Position numbers and translations under genes: made by a program
The notes under the pieces: generated by a model
What the model saw: only the letters and a program-made list of their open reading frames with translations
The model's database searches: none
Told to the model about the DNA's origin: nothing
Origin: Tahibacter harae
Lineage (GTDB): Bacteria; Pseudomonadota; Gammaproteobacteria; Xanthomonadales; Rhodanobacteraceae
Direction of reading: 5' to 3'
Length of the DNA: 64,000 nucleotides
NCBI RefSeq assembly: GCF_024437735.1
Contig: NZ_JANFQO010000024.1
Span: 1-64,000 of the forward strand
In this document: positions 53,303 to 62,164 of the stretch, one piece after another
Numbering within the stretch: position 1 is the first letter of the stretch
How the letters are laid out: each line of letters starts with the position of its first letter

Positions 53303-55102
53303 TTACGGCAACACCGCCCCCAACGCCCCCTGCTTCCCCTGATACAGCACCACCTGATTCCTCCCATCCCGCTTGGCCTGATACAGCGCCGCATCCGCAC
53401 TGGCCAGCAGCTGGCGCAGTTCATAGCCGGCGGTGACGCTGGAAACCACGCCGAAGCTGCAGGAGATGTTCACGCCGGGCAGGCCGCTGCCGACGCTGGT
53501 GGCGGCGACGGCCTGGCGCAGTTGTTCGGCCAGGGCCATGGCGCGGACGGCGCTGCAGTCGGCCAGCAGGATGGCGAATTCTTCGCCGCCGATGCGGCCG
53601 AACAGCTGGTTGGGGCGCAGATAGGTGGAGCAGGCGGCGACGACCTGTTTCAGCACCTGGTCGCCGGCGGCATGGCCGTGCAGGTCGTTGATGGTCTTGA
53701 AGTGATCCAGGTCGAGCAGGATCAGGCTGCATTCGCGCACGCTGCGGCGGCAGTCGTCCAGGGTGCGGCGGGCGACGTCGATGAAGTGCGGCCGGTTGAT
53801 GATGCCGGTCAGGCCGTCGTGCTGGGAAAGATGGCGGAAATGCAGCTGGCGGCGCTTGGTGTGGAAGGCCCACAGGAACAGCATCAGCAGCCCGGCGATA
53901 AGCAGGGCGATGTACAGCCGGCTGGTCTCGGCGGCCTTGCCGGCGAGCTGCTGTTGCAGTTGCAGCACCTGGTTCTGCTTGTTCAGCGCCTCGATCTGCA
54001 GCTTGGTCGCGATGGCCTGGTGACGCGCCATCTGGTAGGCCAGGGCGCGGGCGCTGACATCGTCGAGGTGCTGCTTGTCGGCTTCGGCGTATTTCTCGTA
54101 ATAGGCCAGCGCGGTCTTGGTTTCGCCCTGTTGCTGGGCGATGCGGTAGAGCAGCTGGTAGGCCGCGACCAGCGGCTCGGTCACCTCGTTGGGCACGCGC
54201 TTGTCGACCGAGCGCAGCGCATAGGCGCGGGCCTTGGCCAGGTCGCCGAGATTGAAATGCGCATTGGCCAGCAACACGTCGAACTCCGACACCATGCGCA
54301 GGTAGCGCGTGCGCTGCAGTTCCTCATAGCTCGCGTCGAGCAGGGTGATGGCGTCGCGGTAGCGGCCCTTGTCGATGCGCGCCTTGGCCTGGTAGCCGCG
54401 CACGATGTTGGCGAACACCACCTCGCCGTGGCTGTTGCAGGTTTCCAGGGCCAGGGCGACGTCTTCGCCTTCGGGGTCGAGCCGGTTGGATTTGTATAAC
54501 GATTCCACGCGCAGCTCGCGTGCGATGCATTCGCCGCGCAGGCCTTTGCGTTCCTGCAGCAGACGGTTGCTGAAATCCAGGCCCAGGTCGTACTGGCCGG
54601 CCTGGATGTTGAGCAGGGCGGCGGCGTGCAGGCCCTGTTCGCGTGCCTGCGGATTGCTGGTCTGCGGCAGGCGCTCGACCAGCATGTCGAGGTAGGTATA
54701 GGCCTCCTGGTAGCGCCGCGCGATGGTCAGGTTGCTGACCAGGCTGGCGGTGGCGCGGAACTGCAGCACCGCGTCTTCGGACTGGCTGATCACCGCCTTG
54801 TACAGCGGGATGGCCTGTTCGTAGTCGCCGGCGTAGCCGCGCTCCCAGGCCTTGAGGTAGTTCAGGTATTGCAGCTGGGCCGGCGCCAGTTCGGCCTTGG
54901 CGGCATCGACGTCGGTGAGGATCGCGGCGAAGCGCGGGTAGTCGGAACTCTTGAGCGCGTCGGCTTCGCCCAGCTTGCGGTCGAAGTCGCCGGGCTGGGC
55001 GGCGATGCCGCCCGCCACGGCGAGGAGCGCACACAGCACCGCCGCGCCGGCACGAAGGCCGCCGCGCAGCGGTGCTGCAAGCCTGCGCAACCGACCTTGC
55101 AA
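53303..55102 (-). CDS. TPR-containing diguanylate cyclase (GGDEF) ending the borosin-like operon
   Basis: A 599-residue protein read from a TTG at 55102, one base after the stop of the precursor gene. It has a signal-like N-terminus, TPR-like helices (about residues 45-390), a transmembrane helix (L-Y-I-A-L-L-I-A-G-L-L-M-L-F-L-W), and a GGDEF domain with G-G-E-E-F at residues 505-509. That motif is active-type, so the protein should make cyclic di-GMP in the cytoplasm while its repeats face the periplasm. No better start is present, and a signal peptide follows this TTG. Coupling to the precursor gene suggests shared translation. Confidence 0.85.
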   Translation of the reverse strand: MQGRLRRLAAPLRGGLRAGAAVLCALLAVAGGIAAQPGDFDRKLGEADALKSSDYPRFAAILTDVDAAKAELAPAQLQYLNYLKAWERGYAGDYEQAIPLYKAVISQSEDAVLQFRATASLVSNLTIARRYQEAYTYLDMLVERLPQTSNPQAREQGLHAAALLNIQAGQYDLGLDFSNRLLQERKGLRGECIARELRVESLYKSNRLDPEGEDVALALETCNSHGEVVFANIVRGYQAKARIDKGRYRDAITLLDASYEELQRTRYLRMVSEFDVLLANAHFNLGDLAKARAYALRSVDKRVPNEVTEPLVAAYQLLYRIAQQQGETKTALAYYEKYAEADKQHLDDVSARALAYQMARHQAIATKLQIEALNKQNQVLQLQQQLAGKAAETSRLYIALLIAGLLMLFLWAFHTKRRQLHFRHLSQHDGLTGIINRPHFIDVARRTLDDCRRSVRECSLILLDLDHFKTINDLHGHAAGDQVLKQVVAACSTYLRPNQLFGRIGGEEFAILLADCSAVRAMALAEQLRQAVAATSVGSGLPGVNISCSFGVVSSVTAGYELRQLLASADAALYQAKRDGRNQVVLYQGKQGALGAVLP

Positions 55103-55103
55103 G

Positions 55104-55376
55104 TCAGCCTGCCGCGGCGCGCGCGGGACGGATTTCCTCTTCCTCGCGGTCCTTGTCGGGCTGCTGTTCCTCTTCTGCCGGCGCCATGCCGCAGATCACG
55201 TTGGTGCGCGCACCCAGCAGGATTTCCAGGCGCTTCTGGTCGCCGGCCAGGATCGCGGCGGCAAGCTCCGGATCCAGGTTCGACTGCTGCAGCGTGGCGG
55301 CGATCTGGCCGGTGCCGGAATGGCGCAGGCGTGCGTCGCTGCCCATCTTTTCCAGGAACTCGATGACGTTGGACAT
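55104..55376 (-). CDS. Candidate split-borosin precursor peptide
   Basis: A 90-residue protein, ATG at 55376 with GAGGGG upstream. Residues 1-55 form a helical leader-like domain (V-I-E-F-L-E-K-M-G-S-D-A-R-L, then L-D-P-E-L-A-A-A-I-L-A-G-D-Q-K-R-L). The same pattern, a short F-L-x-x-x-G-x-D-A-x-L helix and a later A-I-L/V-M-x-G-D-x-x-x-L helix, occurs in the borosin-binding domain of SonA, the Shewanella split-borosin precursor. Residues 57-64 (R-T-N-V-I-C-G-M) would be the core. A tail rich in Glu, Pro and Lys follows (66-90). It lies 10 bases downstream of the GNAT gene and ends one base before the GGDEF start. There is no signal peptide. Confidence 0.78.
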   Translation of the reverse strand: MSNVIEFLEKMGSDARLRHSGTGQIAATLQQSNLDPELAAAILAGDQKRLEILLGARTNVICGMAPAEEEQQPDKDREEEEIRPARAAAG

Positions 55377-55386
55377 CACTTTCCCC

Positions 55387-55944
55387 TCAGTGGCTGGTGG
55401 TGGTGCTGGGTTGGACATCAGGCCGGTATACAACGAACAGACAGGCTCCTTCCGCCGGCCCGGCAGCAGGATGCGGCTGGTATTTCATGCCGGCGCGCTC
55501 GGCCAGGCGCCGCGCGCGCAGGTTGGCGGGATCGGTCAGGCTGTAGAGCTGCGCCAGCGGCAGGCGGCGGAAGCCCCAGGCGATCAGGCCGCTCAGTGCT
55601 TCGCAGGCGTAGCCCTGGGCGAAGGTTTCGCGCCGCAGCATCAAGCCCAGTTCGGCGCGGCTGGCGGCGGTGTCGATGGCGCGCAGCGCGCAGACGCCTA
55701 CCGCCGCACCGCCGTCGTGCGGACGCAGGCTGAGGTAGAGGTGCGGCGGCTGCGGCCTGGCCGCGGCGGCGAGGGCGGCGCGGAAGCTGCGCTGCGCGGC
55801 GGCGGCGGGCAGGGGCGCGCCGACGTAGCGCATCAGCTCGGCGTCGGTATACAGCCCGCAGTACAGCGCCTCGTCGGCATCGGCCAGCGGCCGCACGCGC
55901 AGGCGCGGCGTCTCGAAGCCGGCGGCGGCGGCGGACGGGTTCAT
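55387..55944 (-). CDS. GNAT family N-acetyltransferase in the borosin-like operon
   Basis: A 185-residue RimJ/RimL-like acetyltransferase. T-P-R-L-R-V-R-P-L-A opens the fold. The acetyl-CoA loop region follows (L-M-L-R-R-E-T-F-A-Q-G-Y-A-C-E-A-L-S-G-L), and then T-D-P-A-N-L-R-A-R-R-L-A-E-R-A-G-M-K-Y, with the Asn and Arg pattern of this subfamily. Its ATG overlaps the methyltransferase stop (ATGA), and the precursor gene starts 10 bases after its own stop. Acetylation of the precursor (side chain or newly exposed N-terminus) is possible; a small-molecule acceptor is the alternative. Confidence 0.85.
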   Translation of the reverse strand: MNPSAAAAGFETPRLRVRPLADADEALYCGLYTDAELMRYVGAPLPAAAAQRSFRAALAAAARPQPPHLYLSLRPHDGGAAVGVCALRAIDTAASRAELGLMLRRETFAQGYACEALSGLIAWGFRRLPLAQLYSLTDPANLRARRLAERAGMKYQPHPAAGPAEGACLFVVYRPDVQPSTTTSH

Positions 55945-56738
55945 GCGTAGCCCACGGCCTGGTCCAGGCGGCGCAGGCGTTCGCGGATCTCGTGATTGAC
56001 TTCAAGCGCGCGCGCCGGCGGCAGCACCACGGTCGCGTGCAGGTCGATGTCGGCATCGACCAGGCCGGCCAGGGTCGTGTGCTCGATGCGCGGCGGGTGG
56101 ATGGGCAGGGTGGCGACCTTGTAGATGATCGCCGGATGCGCCGCCGGATAGTCCTGCGCCAGCACATCGACCAGCACCTGGCGATACTCGGCCGGCGTGG
56201 AGAAACGCGCCAGCGACAGGTCGCCGGCAATGCCGACCTGCCACAGCACCAGATAGGCCGAAGTGTCGAGGCGGCGGCGGTAGAACATCAGCTGGCTGGC
56301 CTCGAAATGCTGGCAGCCGACCCGGCCCGGGTCTATGCCCAGGTCGGCGTAGAGGCAGTCCTCGGCCGAGATGCCCGGTTCCATGTGCGCCGCGTAGCCT
56401 TCGGCACGGGCGCGCTCGATGGCGCGGTGCGGCGGCAGGGCGAATACGCCGGGGTGGCCGTAGAACGCGCCGACCACGCGGCGGCCCTCGCGCACCGGCG
56501 CGAGCATGGTTTCGACCATGGCCTCGTAGGTGTGCAGGCGCGACTGCCCTTCGCGGTAATGCGGCTGCAGACTGCGCACATCGGCGTGCAGGCGCTGCAG
56601 CCACAGCTCGACGATGCCGTCGGAGACGCCGGCGAACACCACGTCGGCCTGTTCGATATGACTGCGTGCGAGCGGACTCAGGTGCGAGCCCAGGGTCATG
56701 CCCAGGCCCACGCAAACCAGACTGCCCTTGTGCGCCAT
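55941..56738 (-). CDS. SonM/OphMA-like borosin backbone N-methyltransferase (TP-methylase fold)
   Basis: A 265-residue SAM methyltransferase of the tetrapyrrole-methylase fold. It reads almost throughout like SonM: G-S-L-V-C-V-G-L-G-M at the start, then S-H-I-E-Q-A-D-V-V-F, Y-G-H-P-G-V-F-A-L at 93-101, M-E-P-G-I-S-A-E-D-C-L-Y-A-D-L-G-I-D-P-G, and F-E-A-S-Q-L-M-F-Y. The residues that matter for backbone methylation in OphMA/SonM have counterparts: Y61, R67 and Y71 in H-Y-R-E-G-Q-S-R-L-H-T-Y, and Y93. Ordinary cobalamin/siroheme methylases lack this set. Such enzymes methylate amide nitrogens of a separate precursor; its neighbour at 55104 fits. GGAGGGG lies five bases before the ATG at 56738. 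Confidence 0.88.
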   Translation of the reverse strand: MAHKGSLVCVGLGMTLGSHLSPLARSHIEQADVVFAGVSDGIVELWLQRLHADVRSLQPHYREGQSRLHTYEAMVETMLAPVREGRRVVGAFYGHPGVFALPPHRAIERARAEGYAAHMEPGISAEDCLYADLGIDPGRVGCQHFEASQLMFYRRRLDTSAYLVLWQVGIAGDLSLARFSTPAEYRQVLVDVLAQDYPAAHPAIIYKVATLPIHPPRIEHTTLAGLVDADIDLHATVVLPPARALEVNHEIRERLRRLDQAVGYA

Positions 56739-56869
56739 CAGCCCCTCCGCCTCACGCGCGCCGTGCACGGCGCGGGTTGCCGTGCACTTCTGGTACGAAT
56801 TGTGAGATCGGAACTTATGCGCAATCGCAGCGGCGCGGCAAGTACGGCGTTGCCGTCTGCCGCGCCGGG

Positions 56870-56947
56870 GAAAACGGGGTCAGGTTCACCTGCCGGATTG
56901 CAGGGCAGTTCTTATCCCTTCGGGGAAGTGAACCTGACCCCGTTTTC
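56870..56947. repeat. 78-bp inverted-repeat element B
   Basis: Arms of 20 bases (GAAAACGGGGTCAGGTTCAC at 56870-56889, its exact reverse complement at 56928-56947) enclose 38 bases. The element overlaps the end of the nitronate monooxygenase gene and supplies its last 11 codons and stop. It matches element C in length and arms, which suggests a small non-autonomous mobile element (inference). Confidence 0.85.
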
Positions 56948-58073: not shown

Positions 58074-58151
58074 GAAAACGGGGTCAGGTTCACTTACCTG
58101 AGCAGGCAAAGCGCTGTCGTGCCGCTGGTCAGTAAACCTGACCCCGTTTTC
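58074..58151. repeat. 78-bp inverted-repeat element C
   Basis: Arms 58074-58093 and 58132-58151 match with one mismatch (GTGAAC versus GTAAAC). The arms are the same as those of element B, and the total length, 78 bases, is identical, while the 38-base centre differs. It sits between the nitronate monooxygenase and lysR genes, 25 bases upstream of the former, where the promoter should be. Confidence 0.85.
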
Positions 58152-59211: not shown

Positions 59212-60591
59212 TTACCAGCCATCGGCAAACAGATAGTCCGGCCGCATGCGCGCGACCAGATAATCCTCGCTGTTCGCCTCCGCGCCGCAATCCGGCGTCA
59301 CGCCGCCGACCAGCACCGGCATGCCCAGCCACAGGGTCAGGCGCGAGACGCGGTGTTCCGGCGGCGTTCCGGCGCACGGCGGCGTGGCGGGACGGAAGGC
59401 GATGACGCTGGACTCCGTCGCGCCGAAACCGTTTTCGGTGTAGATCGCGCCGTCGCGCCGTACGTGCGCCATGCCCAGGTAGATGCCGGAATGCTGCATG
59501 TGGCTGTAGGGCCTTATCTGGCCGCTGAGCAGTACGCGGCGTCCCGGCAGCACGGTAATCAGCTGGCGTCCCGGAGCGAGGTCGATCGTCACCGGCTGGC
59601 CGTCCAGCGTGACCGGCTCCAGCTCGTCGACCGAAGCCGAGTCTTCGTCGAAGACGAACAGCAGCACCCGGTCGGCACTGTTGCCGCGGACGTTGTAGCG
59701 GATGGCGCCGGCCAGTGCGACAGTCCGCGCATCGAGCGCGCGACCGGCGCCGACCACCGCACTGTTGGAAAACGGCAGCGGCCGTTCGAGTATATCTTCC
59801 TGCTCCAGCGTGGTGCGGCTGAGCGTCAGCCGGTAGGCGCCGCCGTTGCGGCCGTTCTGGCCGAACACCCAGAGGCGGCCGTCCGGCGCCTCGACCGTGG
59901 TGGTGGCGTTGTCGCTGATGTCGGTGGTGAAGACGCGCGCGCGCTTCAGGCTGCCGTTGGCGGCCAGCAGCACGATGAAGCCGCGGTACTCGCTGGAATC
60001 CTGCAGCTGGGCCTGCCCGGTGACGGCGATATCGCCGTTGGGCAGGGCGTTCACGCCCAGCGGCATTTCCTGCCGGCCGAGTGCGGTGACCACCTGCGCA
60101 TCCAGGTCGAGGTTGACGATGCCGCCGCTGCCGAACTGCGGATCGAGCTGGCCGGTGTGCTTGAGCACGCGCAGGATCTGCAGGTTCTGCTCCTCGCCGG
60201 CGGCAGTGCTGGCCCGCGCCATCACCATGTGGCCGTCCGGCTGGCACAGGCCGGGCACAAAATCGTTCGGGCTGCCCGGCAAGGTCACGCTGACGCGGCC
60301 CTGGGCGCCGTAGGTCTCGTCATAGTCGCCGTCGGGCTTCAGGCGCAGGGTGACCAGGCGGTTCTCGCCGGAGGCGATGCCGGTGACGGTGAAACTGCCG
60401 TCGGCGGCGGCGCAGCCGACCGAGGCCTGGTCGTTGCTGCCGCCGTTGACGGCCTGGAAGGCGTAGTTGCGCATGCCGCCGTCGCCAAAGGCGGGATCGA
60501 GCGGGCCGACATGGGCGCCGGCGCTGCCGCCCAGCGCGGCGGCGGTCAGGCCCAGCGACAGGGCAATCGAGGACAAGGTGAACGGTTTCAT
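59212..60591 (-). CDS. Secreted delta-60 repeat protein (first paralogue)
   Basis: A 459-residue exported protein with signal peptide (A-L-S-L-G-L-T-A-A-A-L-G-G-S-A-G-A). Repeats of about 60 residues open with L-D-P-A-F-G-D-G-G or L-D-P-Q-F-G-S-G-G, the delta-60 pattern, which probably folds as a beta-propeller. The protein ends D-Y-L-V-A-R-M-R-P-D-Y-L-F-A-D-G-W, a short tail shared with its neighbour and like the F-x-D-G-F tails of other xanthomonad secreted proteins. Its role is unknown. It converges on lysR, 71 bases apart. Confidence 0.85.
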   Translation of the reverse strand: MKPFTLSSIALSLGLTAAALGGSAGAHVGPLDPAFGDGGMRNYAFQAVNGGSNDQASVGCAAADGSFTVTGIASGENRLVTLRLKPDGDYDETYGAQGRVSVTLPGSPNDFVPGLCQPDGHMVMARASTAAGEEQNLQILRVLKHTGQLDPQFGSGGIVNLDLDAQVVTALGRQEMPLGVNALPNGDIAVTGQAQLQDSSEYRGFIVLLAANGSLKRARVFTTDISDNATTTVEAPDGRLWVFGQNGRNGGAYRLTLSRTTLEQEDILERPLPFSNSAVVGAGRALDARTVALAGAIRYNVRGNSADRVLLFVFDEDSASVDELEPVTLDGQPVTIDLAPGRQLITVLPGRRVLLSGQIRPYSHMQHSGIYLGMAHVRRDGAIYTENGFGATESSVIAFRPATPPCAGTPPEHRVSRLTLWLGMPVLVGGVTPDCGAEANSEDYLVARMRPDYLFADGW

Positions 60592-60731: not shown

Positions 60732-60809
60732 TAAACGGAGATCAGGTCCACGTACGCGGACTGCGCGGCAATTTCTATTTTTCAGGTAAGTGAACCTGAC
60801 CCGTTTTCC
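60732..60809. repeat. Degenerate inverted-repeat element D
   Basis: The right arm GTGAACCTGACCCGTTTTCC (60790-60809) matches the arms of elements B and C. The left arm (about 60732-60751, AAACGGAGATCAGGTCCAC) has decayed by several bases. The span, about 78 bases, equals that of B and C. It lies in the 235-base gap between the two delta-60 genes, about 140 bases upstream of the first paralogue and just past the stop of the second. Confidence 0.6.
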
Positions 60810-60826: not shown

Positions 60827-62164
60827 TCAGTCCATGCCGTCGCCGAACAGGTAGTCCGGGCGCAGGCGACCGATCAGATAATCCAGCGCATCCGTGCCGC
60901 CTTGGCAGTTCTGCAGCACGCCGCCGGCCAGCACTGGCAGGCCGTCCCACAGGGTGAGGCGCAGGAAGCTGTGCAGCGGCACCACGGTGGCGCAGGCCGG
61001 ATCGGGTGCGCGGAAGGAGACGAGCTGGGTGCCGCCGTCGCCGAACTGCGTTTCCAGGCGGTCGCCATCCGTGTCGTAGCCGATGCGCGCGGTGGCGAAA
61101 TGGATGGCCGAGCGGCTGTTGCTGCCGCTCGTCGAGGCCAGGCTGGAAAGCAGCACGCGGCGGCCGGGCAACACGGTCAGCCCCAGATCGCCGCTGGCCA
61201 GGTAGCCGGCCGGCGGTCCCGGCAGCGGCAGCGCGGTGATGCTGTTGGCGCGGAACACGATCACCTGAGGCGCCGCGCCGGGATTCTGCGACACCGTCGC
61301 TGCGGGCATGACGACGGTATCCGCGTCGACCGGCCGCGCCGGACCCAGCGCGTACACGTAGCCGGGCGGCGCCGCGTATTCCAGCACGCCTTCCCAGGCC
61401 AGCGAGTCACGGTTGAGCGTAGCGCGGTACACGCCGCTGATGCGGCCGTTGCGTCCGAATGCCCAGAGCCGTCCGTCCGGCGCCTGCACTGCGGCATAGA
61501 CGTTGGCGGAGCGCAGGTTGGCCAGGGCTTGCACGGTGCGCACGCTGCCGTCGGCGCGCAGCAGGGCGATGAATCCGCGCGAGCTGCCGTCGGCCAGCTG
61601 GGCATCGCCGCCGATGGCAAGATCGCCGTTGGGCAGGGCGTTCACGCTCAGCGGCGTTTCGCGTTGGCCCAGGCCTGGTATCCAGCTGTCCAGGTCGATG
61701 TCGGCCGCGCCGTTGCTGCCGAAGGATGGATCCGGCTGGCCGCTCTGCTTGAGTACGCGCACGATCTGCAGGGCCTGCTCGCCGTCCTGGCCGGTGAGCG
61801 TGCGTACCAGGACCAGGTTCCCGTCGGGCTGGCACAGGCCGGGAATGTAGCCGCTGAAAGTGCCTGGCAGGTCGAAGCTCGCTTTGCCGTCCACGCCAAA
61901 GGCGGGATCGTAGCCGCCGTTGGCGTGCAGCCGGATGGTGACCACGCGCCGGCTATTCGAGGCGATGCCGGCCGCGGTCAGGGTGCCGTTGGCGCTGGCG
62001 CAGGCCACTACGCCCTGGTCATTGTTGCCGCCGCTGACCGGCTGGAAGCCATAGTGGCGCAGACCGCCGTCGCCGAAGGCCGGGTCCAGTGCGTTGGCGG
62101 CCTGGGCCGCGCCGGTCGTCGCGCAGAAACTCAGACAGAGCAGGAAAAGACGAGGCAGGATCAT
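60827..62164 (-). CDS. Secreted delta-60 repeat protein (second paralogue)
   Basis: A 445-residue exported protein closely related to the one at 59212: signal peptide, L-D-P-A-F-G-D-G-G near the N-terminus, L-C-Q-P-D-G blade motif at the same place, and the end R-P-D-Y-L-F-G-D-G-M-D. The pair is a tandem duplication with divergence. Its product should reach the periplasm or cell surface. Function unknown. It is downstream of, and in line with, the kinase gene at 62275. Confidence 0.85.
   Translation of the reverse strand: MILPRLFLLCLSFCATTGAAQAANALDPAFGDGGLRHYGFQPVSGGNNDQGVVACASANGTLTAAGIASNSRRVVTIRLHANGGYDPAFGVDGKASFDLPGTFSGYIPGLCQPDGNLVLVRTLTGQDGEQALQIVRVLKQSGQPDPSFGSNGAADIDLDSWIPGLGQRETPLSVNALPNGDLAIGGDAQLADGSSRGFIALLRADGSVRTVQALANLRSANVYAAVQAPDGRLWAFGRNGRISGVYRATLNRDSLAWEGVLEYAAPPGYVYALGPARPVDADTVVMPAATVSQNPGAAPQVIVFRANSITALPLPGPPAGYLASGDLGLTVLPGRRVLLSSLASTSGSNSRSAIHFATARIGYDTDGDRLETQFGDGGTQLVSFRAPDPACATVVPLHSFLRLTLWDGLPVLAGGVLQNCQGGTDALDYLIGRLRPDYLFGDGMD

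Follow-up and report, generated by a model that had tools for sequence, protein, structure and literature searches.

The closest described relative of the locus reported here is the split (type IV) borosin system SonM-SonA of Shewanella oneidensis (SO1478, SO1479; PMC8429565), in which a TP-methylase-fold enzyme is encoded separately from a precursor with a five-helix leader. Passages of that paper report that residues Y58, R67, Y71 and Y93 matter in SonM, with the Y71F variant losing much of its activity, and state that in 2021 no split pathway had yet been tied to a final product. The terms GGDEF, diguanylate, TPR and acetyltransferase do not occur in its main text, and the surveyed passages of borosin papers give no biological role for bacterial split borosins. 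Here we analyse a related operon in a 64,000-nucleotide stretch of Tahibacter harae DNA (contig NZ_JANFQO010000024.1, positions 1 to 64,000; hereafter the window). Homology identifies the operon as a split (type IV) borosin locus, with predicted peptide methylation. We propose, with a probability of roughly 55%, that it encodes a peptide-gated cyclic-di-GMP signalling module in which the borosin product is the signal for its own receptor.

A compact split borosin operon in Tahibacter harae

Four minus-strand open reading frames (ORFs) between positions 53303 and 56738 encode, in this order, a methyltransferase, a GNAT acetyltransferase, a precursor and a TPR-GGDEF membrane protein. They are virtually gapless: a 4-base ATGA overlap is followed by gaps of 10 bases and 1 base, as a previous sequence-only reading of this stretch had described. 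Sister genomes repeat the same genes in the same order, and the arrangement is therefore not due to chance. The nearest named locus to that of the 6.0 Mb source genome (G000) belongs to Tahibacter aquaticus, whose methyltransferase is 89% identical. The two enzyme genes are:

55941..56738, minus strand: borosin-type peptide backbone (alpha-N) methyltransferase, SonM homologue, 265 residues (from homology; activity predicted)
55387..55944, minus strand: GNAT acetyltransferase, accessory enzyme, 185 residues (Pfam Acetyltransf_3, 2.9e-26)

The methyltransferase, which we start at the ATG at 56738 (the ORF list gives a GTG start at 56768), matches Pfam TP_methylase (1e-18), SonM (E 1.7e-74) and OphMA (about 4e-48). 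Its pairwise alignment with SonM shows 51% identity across 251 residues and places SonM Y58/R67/Y71/Y93 opposite window Y61/R67/Y71/Y93, bearing out the proposed likeness to SonM along its length and the retention of these residues. All four are invariant across 20 diverse aligned sequences, the window's included. An identity as a porphyrin or cobalamin methylase was rejected on the ground that SonM and OphMA are the best matches; the sole NCBIfam match, YabN, scored 30.5 bits against a cut-off of 525, so that the best match to porphyrin methylases that would speak against a borosin enzyme was not found. An enzyme of the SonM/OphMA family encoded apart from its precursor is the type IV arrangement. 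Among plasmids, 12 records held methyltransferase matches, all less than 60% identical, and the sensor was present in none of them.

The GNAT gene, inserted between methyltransferase and precursor, sets the operon apart from SonM-SonA. Of 142 loci whose methyltransferase is distinct, 50 had a GNAT match somewhere in the stretch; GNAT is thus a recurring accessory beside the methyltransferase that possibly acetylates the peptide.

A SonA-like precursor with a five-helix leader

55104..55376, minus strand: SonA-like borosin precursor, 90 residues (leader profile and leader fold)
55212..55376, minus strand: leader (borosin-binding domain), precursor residues 1-55, five helices (profile and predicted fold)
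55179..55211, minus strand: predicted core, residues 56-66, ARTNVICGMAP (from sequence, in the register of SonA L63 and I65)

Neither Pfam nor NCBIfam recognised the window precursor, and the 90-residue protein alone matched SonA weakly (E 0.048 to 0.37). Built from 26 relatives, with the short Shewanella-type precursors left out, a profile reached seven distinct SonA sequences at 1.1e-5 to 4.4e-5, with the next match at 0.14. The precursor is thus a discrete ORF with a predicted five-helix borosin-binding leader, in agreement with the SonA-like helical leader proposed earlier. Homology, active-site residues, leader profile and leader fold together uphold the split borosin pathway of the sequence-only reading, while the N-methylation itself is a prediction.

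The core was placed by the register of SonA L63 and I65, taken from a passage of PMC8429565, and the methylation sites would fall within residues 56-66. Residues 67-90 form an acidic tail of 24 residues, whereas the Shewanella-type precursor ends 16 residues past the leader; long acidic tails follow the core in many precursors. The Tahibacter aquaticus precursor (L001:7367-7786, plus strand) carries EEEIR at 80, 95, 110 and 125 as a 15-residue tail repeat, and the same motif occurs once in the window precursor. At four loci (L016, L022, L029 and L033), a precursor has a doubled CCML-x-P-like core and, in three of the four, stands before a second precursor.

A membrane TPR-GGDEF protein follows the precursor

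53303..55102, minus strand: membrane TPR-GGDEF protein, predicted diguanylate cyclase, 599 residues (TTG start at 55102, the program's choice)
53903..55012, minus strand: TPR sensor and long helix, residues 31-400, predicted periplasmic (layout, alignment and model)
53861..53917, minus strand: predicted transmembrane helix, residues about 396-414
53354..53824, minus strand: GGDEF domain with an intact GGEEF at residue 505 (Pfam GGDEF, 6.7e-39)

This protein, the putative receptor, has an N-terminal hydrophobic segment, a membrane helix and a GGDEF domain. Its Pfam TPR matches fall below their cut-offs; C192 and C222 are each found in 181 of 182 aligned sensor sequences, the window's included. 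An intact GG(D/E)EF motif, present in 116 of 117 homologues, predicts diguanylate cyclase activity. The RxxD inhibitory site kept by most homologues reads RPNQ in the window protein (53576-53617).

RRNPP receptors (Rap, NprR, AimR), which belong to Gram-positive bacteria and their phages, are soluble in the cytoplasm and carry a helix-turn-helix or phosphatase module. RapF, Rap, NprR and AimR appear among the best 50 listed matches to the TPR model, in which eukaryotic TPR proteins rank first; the modelled sensor may thus resemble pheromone receptors, among other TPR proteins. In contrast to RRNPP receptors, the protein in the window has a predicted periplasmic TPR part joined to a GGDEF enzyme of the membrane, and backbone methylation is predicted for the peptide. 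Because of its hydrophobic N-terminus, membrane helix and GGDEF domain, the receptor does not have the soluble cytoplasmic form of RRNPP proteins and is not filed among them.

Precursor and receptor form the constant pair

Before a 151-locus scan, we set aside L164-L170, L189 and L081-L111, the last range consisting of short or repeated stretches that include the window's own; loci L191-L217, added later, enter counts only where named, and two repeated methyltransferases were dropped from the locus conservation counts. Among the 80 loci selected for their closeness to the window, 79 have methyltransferase, precursor and TPR sensor in this order on one strand within 3 kb, and in the exception the stretch ends directly after the methyltransferase. 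With distant loci added, a receptor lies within 6 kb of 135 of 145 distinct methyltransferase copies; six of the ten without one are distant (L112, L115-L119; 26 to 43% identical to SonM). The arrangement extends to L171, a locus inferred to be from Shewanella, where SonM shares 98% identity with that of Shewanella oneidensis: as in the window, a TPR-GGDEF ORF starts directly after the SonA stop. The earlier view that a borosin operon with a cyclic-di-GMP enzyme was an undescribed arrangement is contradicted by these loci and by the Fig. 1 legend of PMC11395268, which lists GGDEF among the elements of borosin architectures. We also rejected the GGDEF gene as a local oddity, since it recurs across loci and in a Shewanella-type genome; the GGDEF partner is a constant feature and no novelty of the window.

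Seen from the receptor, a precursor lies within 700 bp upstream of 146 of 160 distinct copies. Another comparison covered 27 receptors far from listed methyltransferases, partly outside these 160: the precursor was directly upstream in 23 (6/7 and 17/20), and the stretches read around all 27 contained no methyltransferase. Two of the three misses in the set of 20 appear, by eye, to reflect a truncated precursor start. At L042, L022 and L159, several precursor-receptor units surround one methyltransferase. Because such remote and multiple units exist, one methyltransferase can probably serve several precursors in trans, and the comparison points to precursor and receptor as the constant pair of the module.

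Co-variation was examined in 100 non-redundant linked sets, obtained by dropping near-identical sensors from the 121 sets, out of 147, that have one methyltransferase in the stretch. Partial rank correlations, in which ancestry is partly controlled, gave 0.23 for core and sensor, a value reached by 0 of 500 permutations (such p-values assume independent rows), and -0.05 for core and methyltransferase. The leader correlated with the methyltransferase at 0.33 and with the sensor at 0.20. When the sensor was split in four, its correlation with the core was 0.21, 0.14 and 0.18 for the three TPR parts and 0.125 for the long helix, with small differences; the core-GGDEF value was 0.11 (0.106), with controls that differ from those of the sensor parts. 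Contact of the leader with the enzyme and of the core with the sensor would be expected to give this pattern.

Across 348 genomes of the order (cut-offs: methyltransferase E 1e-20 or better, receptor E 1e-40 or better), the methyltransferase was found in 175, the receptor in 185 and both in 166; nine had the methyltransferase alone and 154 had neither. We chose the receptor cut-off after inspecting the match list; 17 genomes whose matches were weaker, including two that have a methyltransferase, were left out. A strict dependence of the receptor on the methyltransferase was apparent in 61 genomes (32 both, 1 methyltransferase alone, 0 receptor alone, 28 neither; Fisher test), a table assembled by reading match lists from which one methyltransferase match at 9.4e-4 in G042 was dropped. 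It was rejected in view of the receptor-alone genomes among the 348.

A pepsin-like protease accompanies a subset of loci

An aspartic protease gene lies on the operon strand at 13 distinct loci (L019, L051, L079, L127, L138, L139, L142, L174, L176, L179, L184, L187 and L188), and 12 of these loci show the order protease, GNAT, methyltransferase; Pfam Asp was matched by 7/7 protease proteins scanned. Among the genomes searched, the protease was present in 7 of the 33 relatives that bear the methyltransferase and in none of the other 28, and, in a second order, in 19 of 40 methyltransferase-bearing and 0 of 40 other genomes, hand-picked from 94 and 300; in 13 of these 19, it lies within about 2.3 kb of a methyltransferase. 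The pooled counts, which ignore kinship, are 26/73 with and 0/68 without the methyltransferase. Eight of the 26 (7 of the 40 picked methyltransferase-bearing genomes and G060) were already known to carry the protease; leaving these out, the contrast stays clear (18/65 versus 0/68).

No protease is encoded among the window ORFs of the operon. The same genome holds an intact-looking copy elsewhere (G000:C1:334114-335355; L213:4618-5862, plus strand), in which no signal peptide was seen by eye. The pepsin-like genes found with borosin loci encode two DTG-type motifs, and beta-secretase 2 was the best solved match of the one queried. Their products resemble the shewasins as pepsin-like aspartic proteases, a family link by description rather than by comparison with shewasin sequences (passages of PMC4814920). 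The words operon, methyltransferase, acetyltransferase, GGDEF and neighbor do not appear in the main text of PMC4814920, the shewasin D paper. It reports that this Shewanella pepsin homologue builds up mostly in the cytoplasm, which bears on the protease step because a leader protease would act there.

Surroundings of the operon

56876..56941, no strand: long hairpin with ends GGGGTCAGGTTCAC, between an upstream nitronate-monooxygenase-like gene and the operon

This hairpin is a possible terminator or repeated palindrome. Copies of GGGGTCAGGTTCAC occur in the window at 56876-56941, 58080-58145 and 60790-60803 (5 matches versus 0.02 expected), two pairs being inverted; the pair immediately upstream of the operon folds into a highly stable hairpin (-55.2 kcal/mol, z -6.0). 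Further along, 59212-60591 and 60827-62164 (minus strand) encode adjacent similar proteins of 459 and 445 residues that, by eye, look like a tandem duplication.

A signalling model and its alternatives

The pairing of precursor and receptor recurs in many relatives, and the peptide may therefore be a signal rather than an antibiotic. From the four gene identities, the active-site residues, the leader fold, the precursor-receptor pairing and the receptor layout, all established computationally, we infer the following course. The methyltransferase would dock on the five-helix leader of the precursor and N-methylate backbone amides in the short hydrophobic core past it, around residues 59-65. The core would then be cut free, in this lineage perhaps by the pepsin-like aspartic protease whose gene lies elsewhere in the genome; acetylation of the new N-terminus by the GNAT enzyme may follow. 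After export, the methylated peptide would reach the periplasm and bind the TPR domain of the membrane protein that the following gene encodes; binding would change the activity of the cytoplasmic GGDEF domain, moving cyclic-di-GMP up or down. The pepsin and GNAT steps are the weaker parts of this proposal; the peptide as ligand of the cyclase is the stronger one. The available passages of PMC8429565, PMC11395268, PMC11285071, PMC4814920 and PMC10885120 contain no statement of the peptide-receptor idea or of a pepsin link.

Several observations weigh against the signalling module. The receptor occurs without the methyltransferase in 19 of the 348 genomes: a recheck of these with a methyltransferase profile gave 0 matches, and in the two that were read no precursor was detected at the receptor. 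No conserved exporter was seen among 35 representative loci, where shared non-protease ORFs were not run against a family library. For the protease step, the acid pH optimum of shewasin D, reported in a passage of PMC4814920, argues against a simple role. The lone receptors would suit an ordinary split-borosin cluster, in which the natural product has some other target and the role of the GGDEF protein is confined to regulating the cluster, or a related behaviour, in response to something unrelated to the peptide; clusters for ribosomally synthesized and post-translationally modified peptides often carry regulators. We nevertheless regard such a cluster as rather unlikely, given that precursor-receptor pairs persist far from the methyltransferase, that several pairs can share one locus although a mere regulator needs no copy per precursor, and that the core varies with the sensor and not with the methyltransferase.

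The missing exporter, the long acidic tails of many precursors and the nearly touching genes would also fit an uncut precursor that acts as a cytoplasmic protein partner of the cyclase, at its GGDEF or coiled-coil part, with methylation tuning the interaction. The core, however, varies more with the three TPR parts than with the long helix or the GGDEF domain, by small differences, and the layout and cysteine pair of the sensor are those of a periplasmic domain, so we consider a cytoplasmic partner improbable. The view that the gene order is due to chance or lineage and reflects no common function draws some strength from the compared genomes, whose counts are not independent because many are related. 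It is already disfavoured, and we give it very little weight: several families and Shewanella-type genomes preserve the linkage, with gene order changed, and the genes occur together across the 348 genomes.

Implications for bacterial split borosins

Extended to the family, the signalling module would make bacterial split borosins a form of peptide signalling, in which methylated peptides are ligands of adjacent periplasmic TPR receptor-cyclases, one methyltransferase serves scattered pairs in trans and bacterial pepsin homologues mature a subset; we offer this wider, composite proposal tentatively, at less than even odds. Crone et al. (2023) reportedly announce a bacterial borosin product in their title, and that work may already contain part of the answer. 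Should the peptide be the ligand of the adjacent cyclase, a ribosomal, backbone-methylated signal would feed directly into cyclic-di-GMP, through a receptor that is already identified and could be tested in Shewanella. This would likewise suggest a function for bacterial pepsins and account for the genomes with several precursor-receptor pairs away from the methyltransferase.

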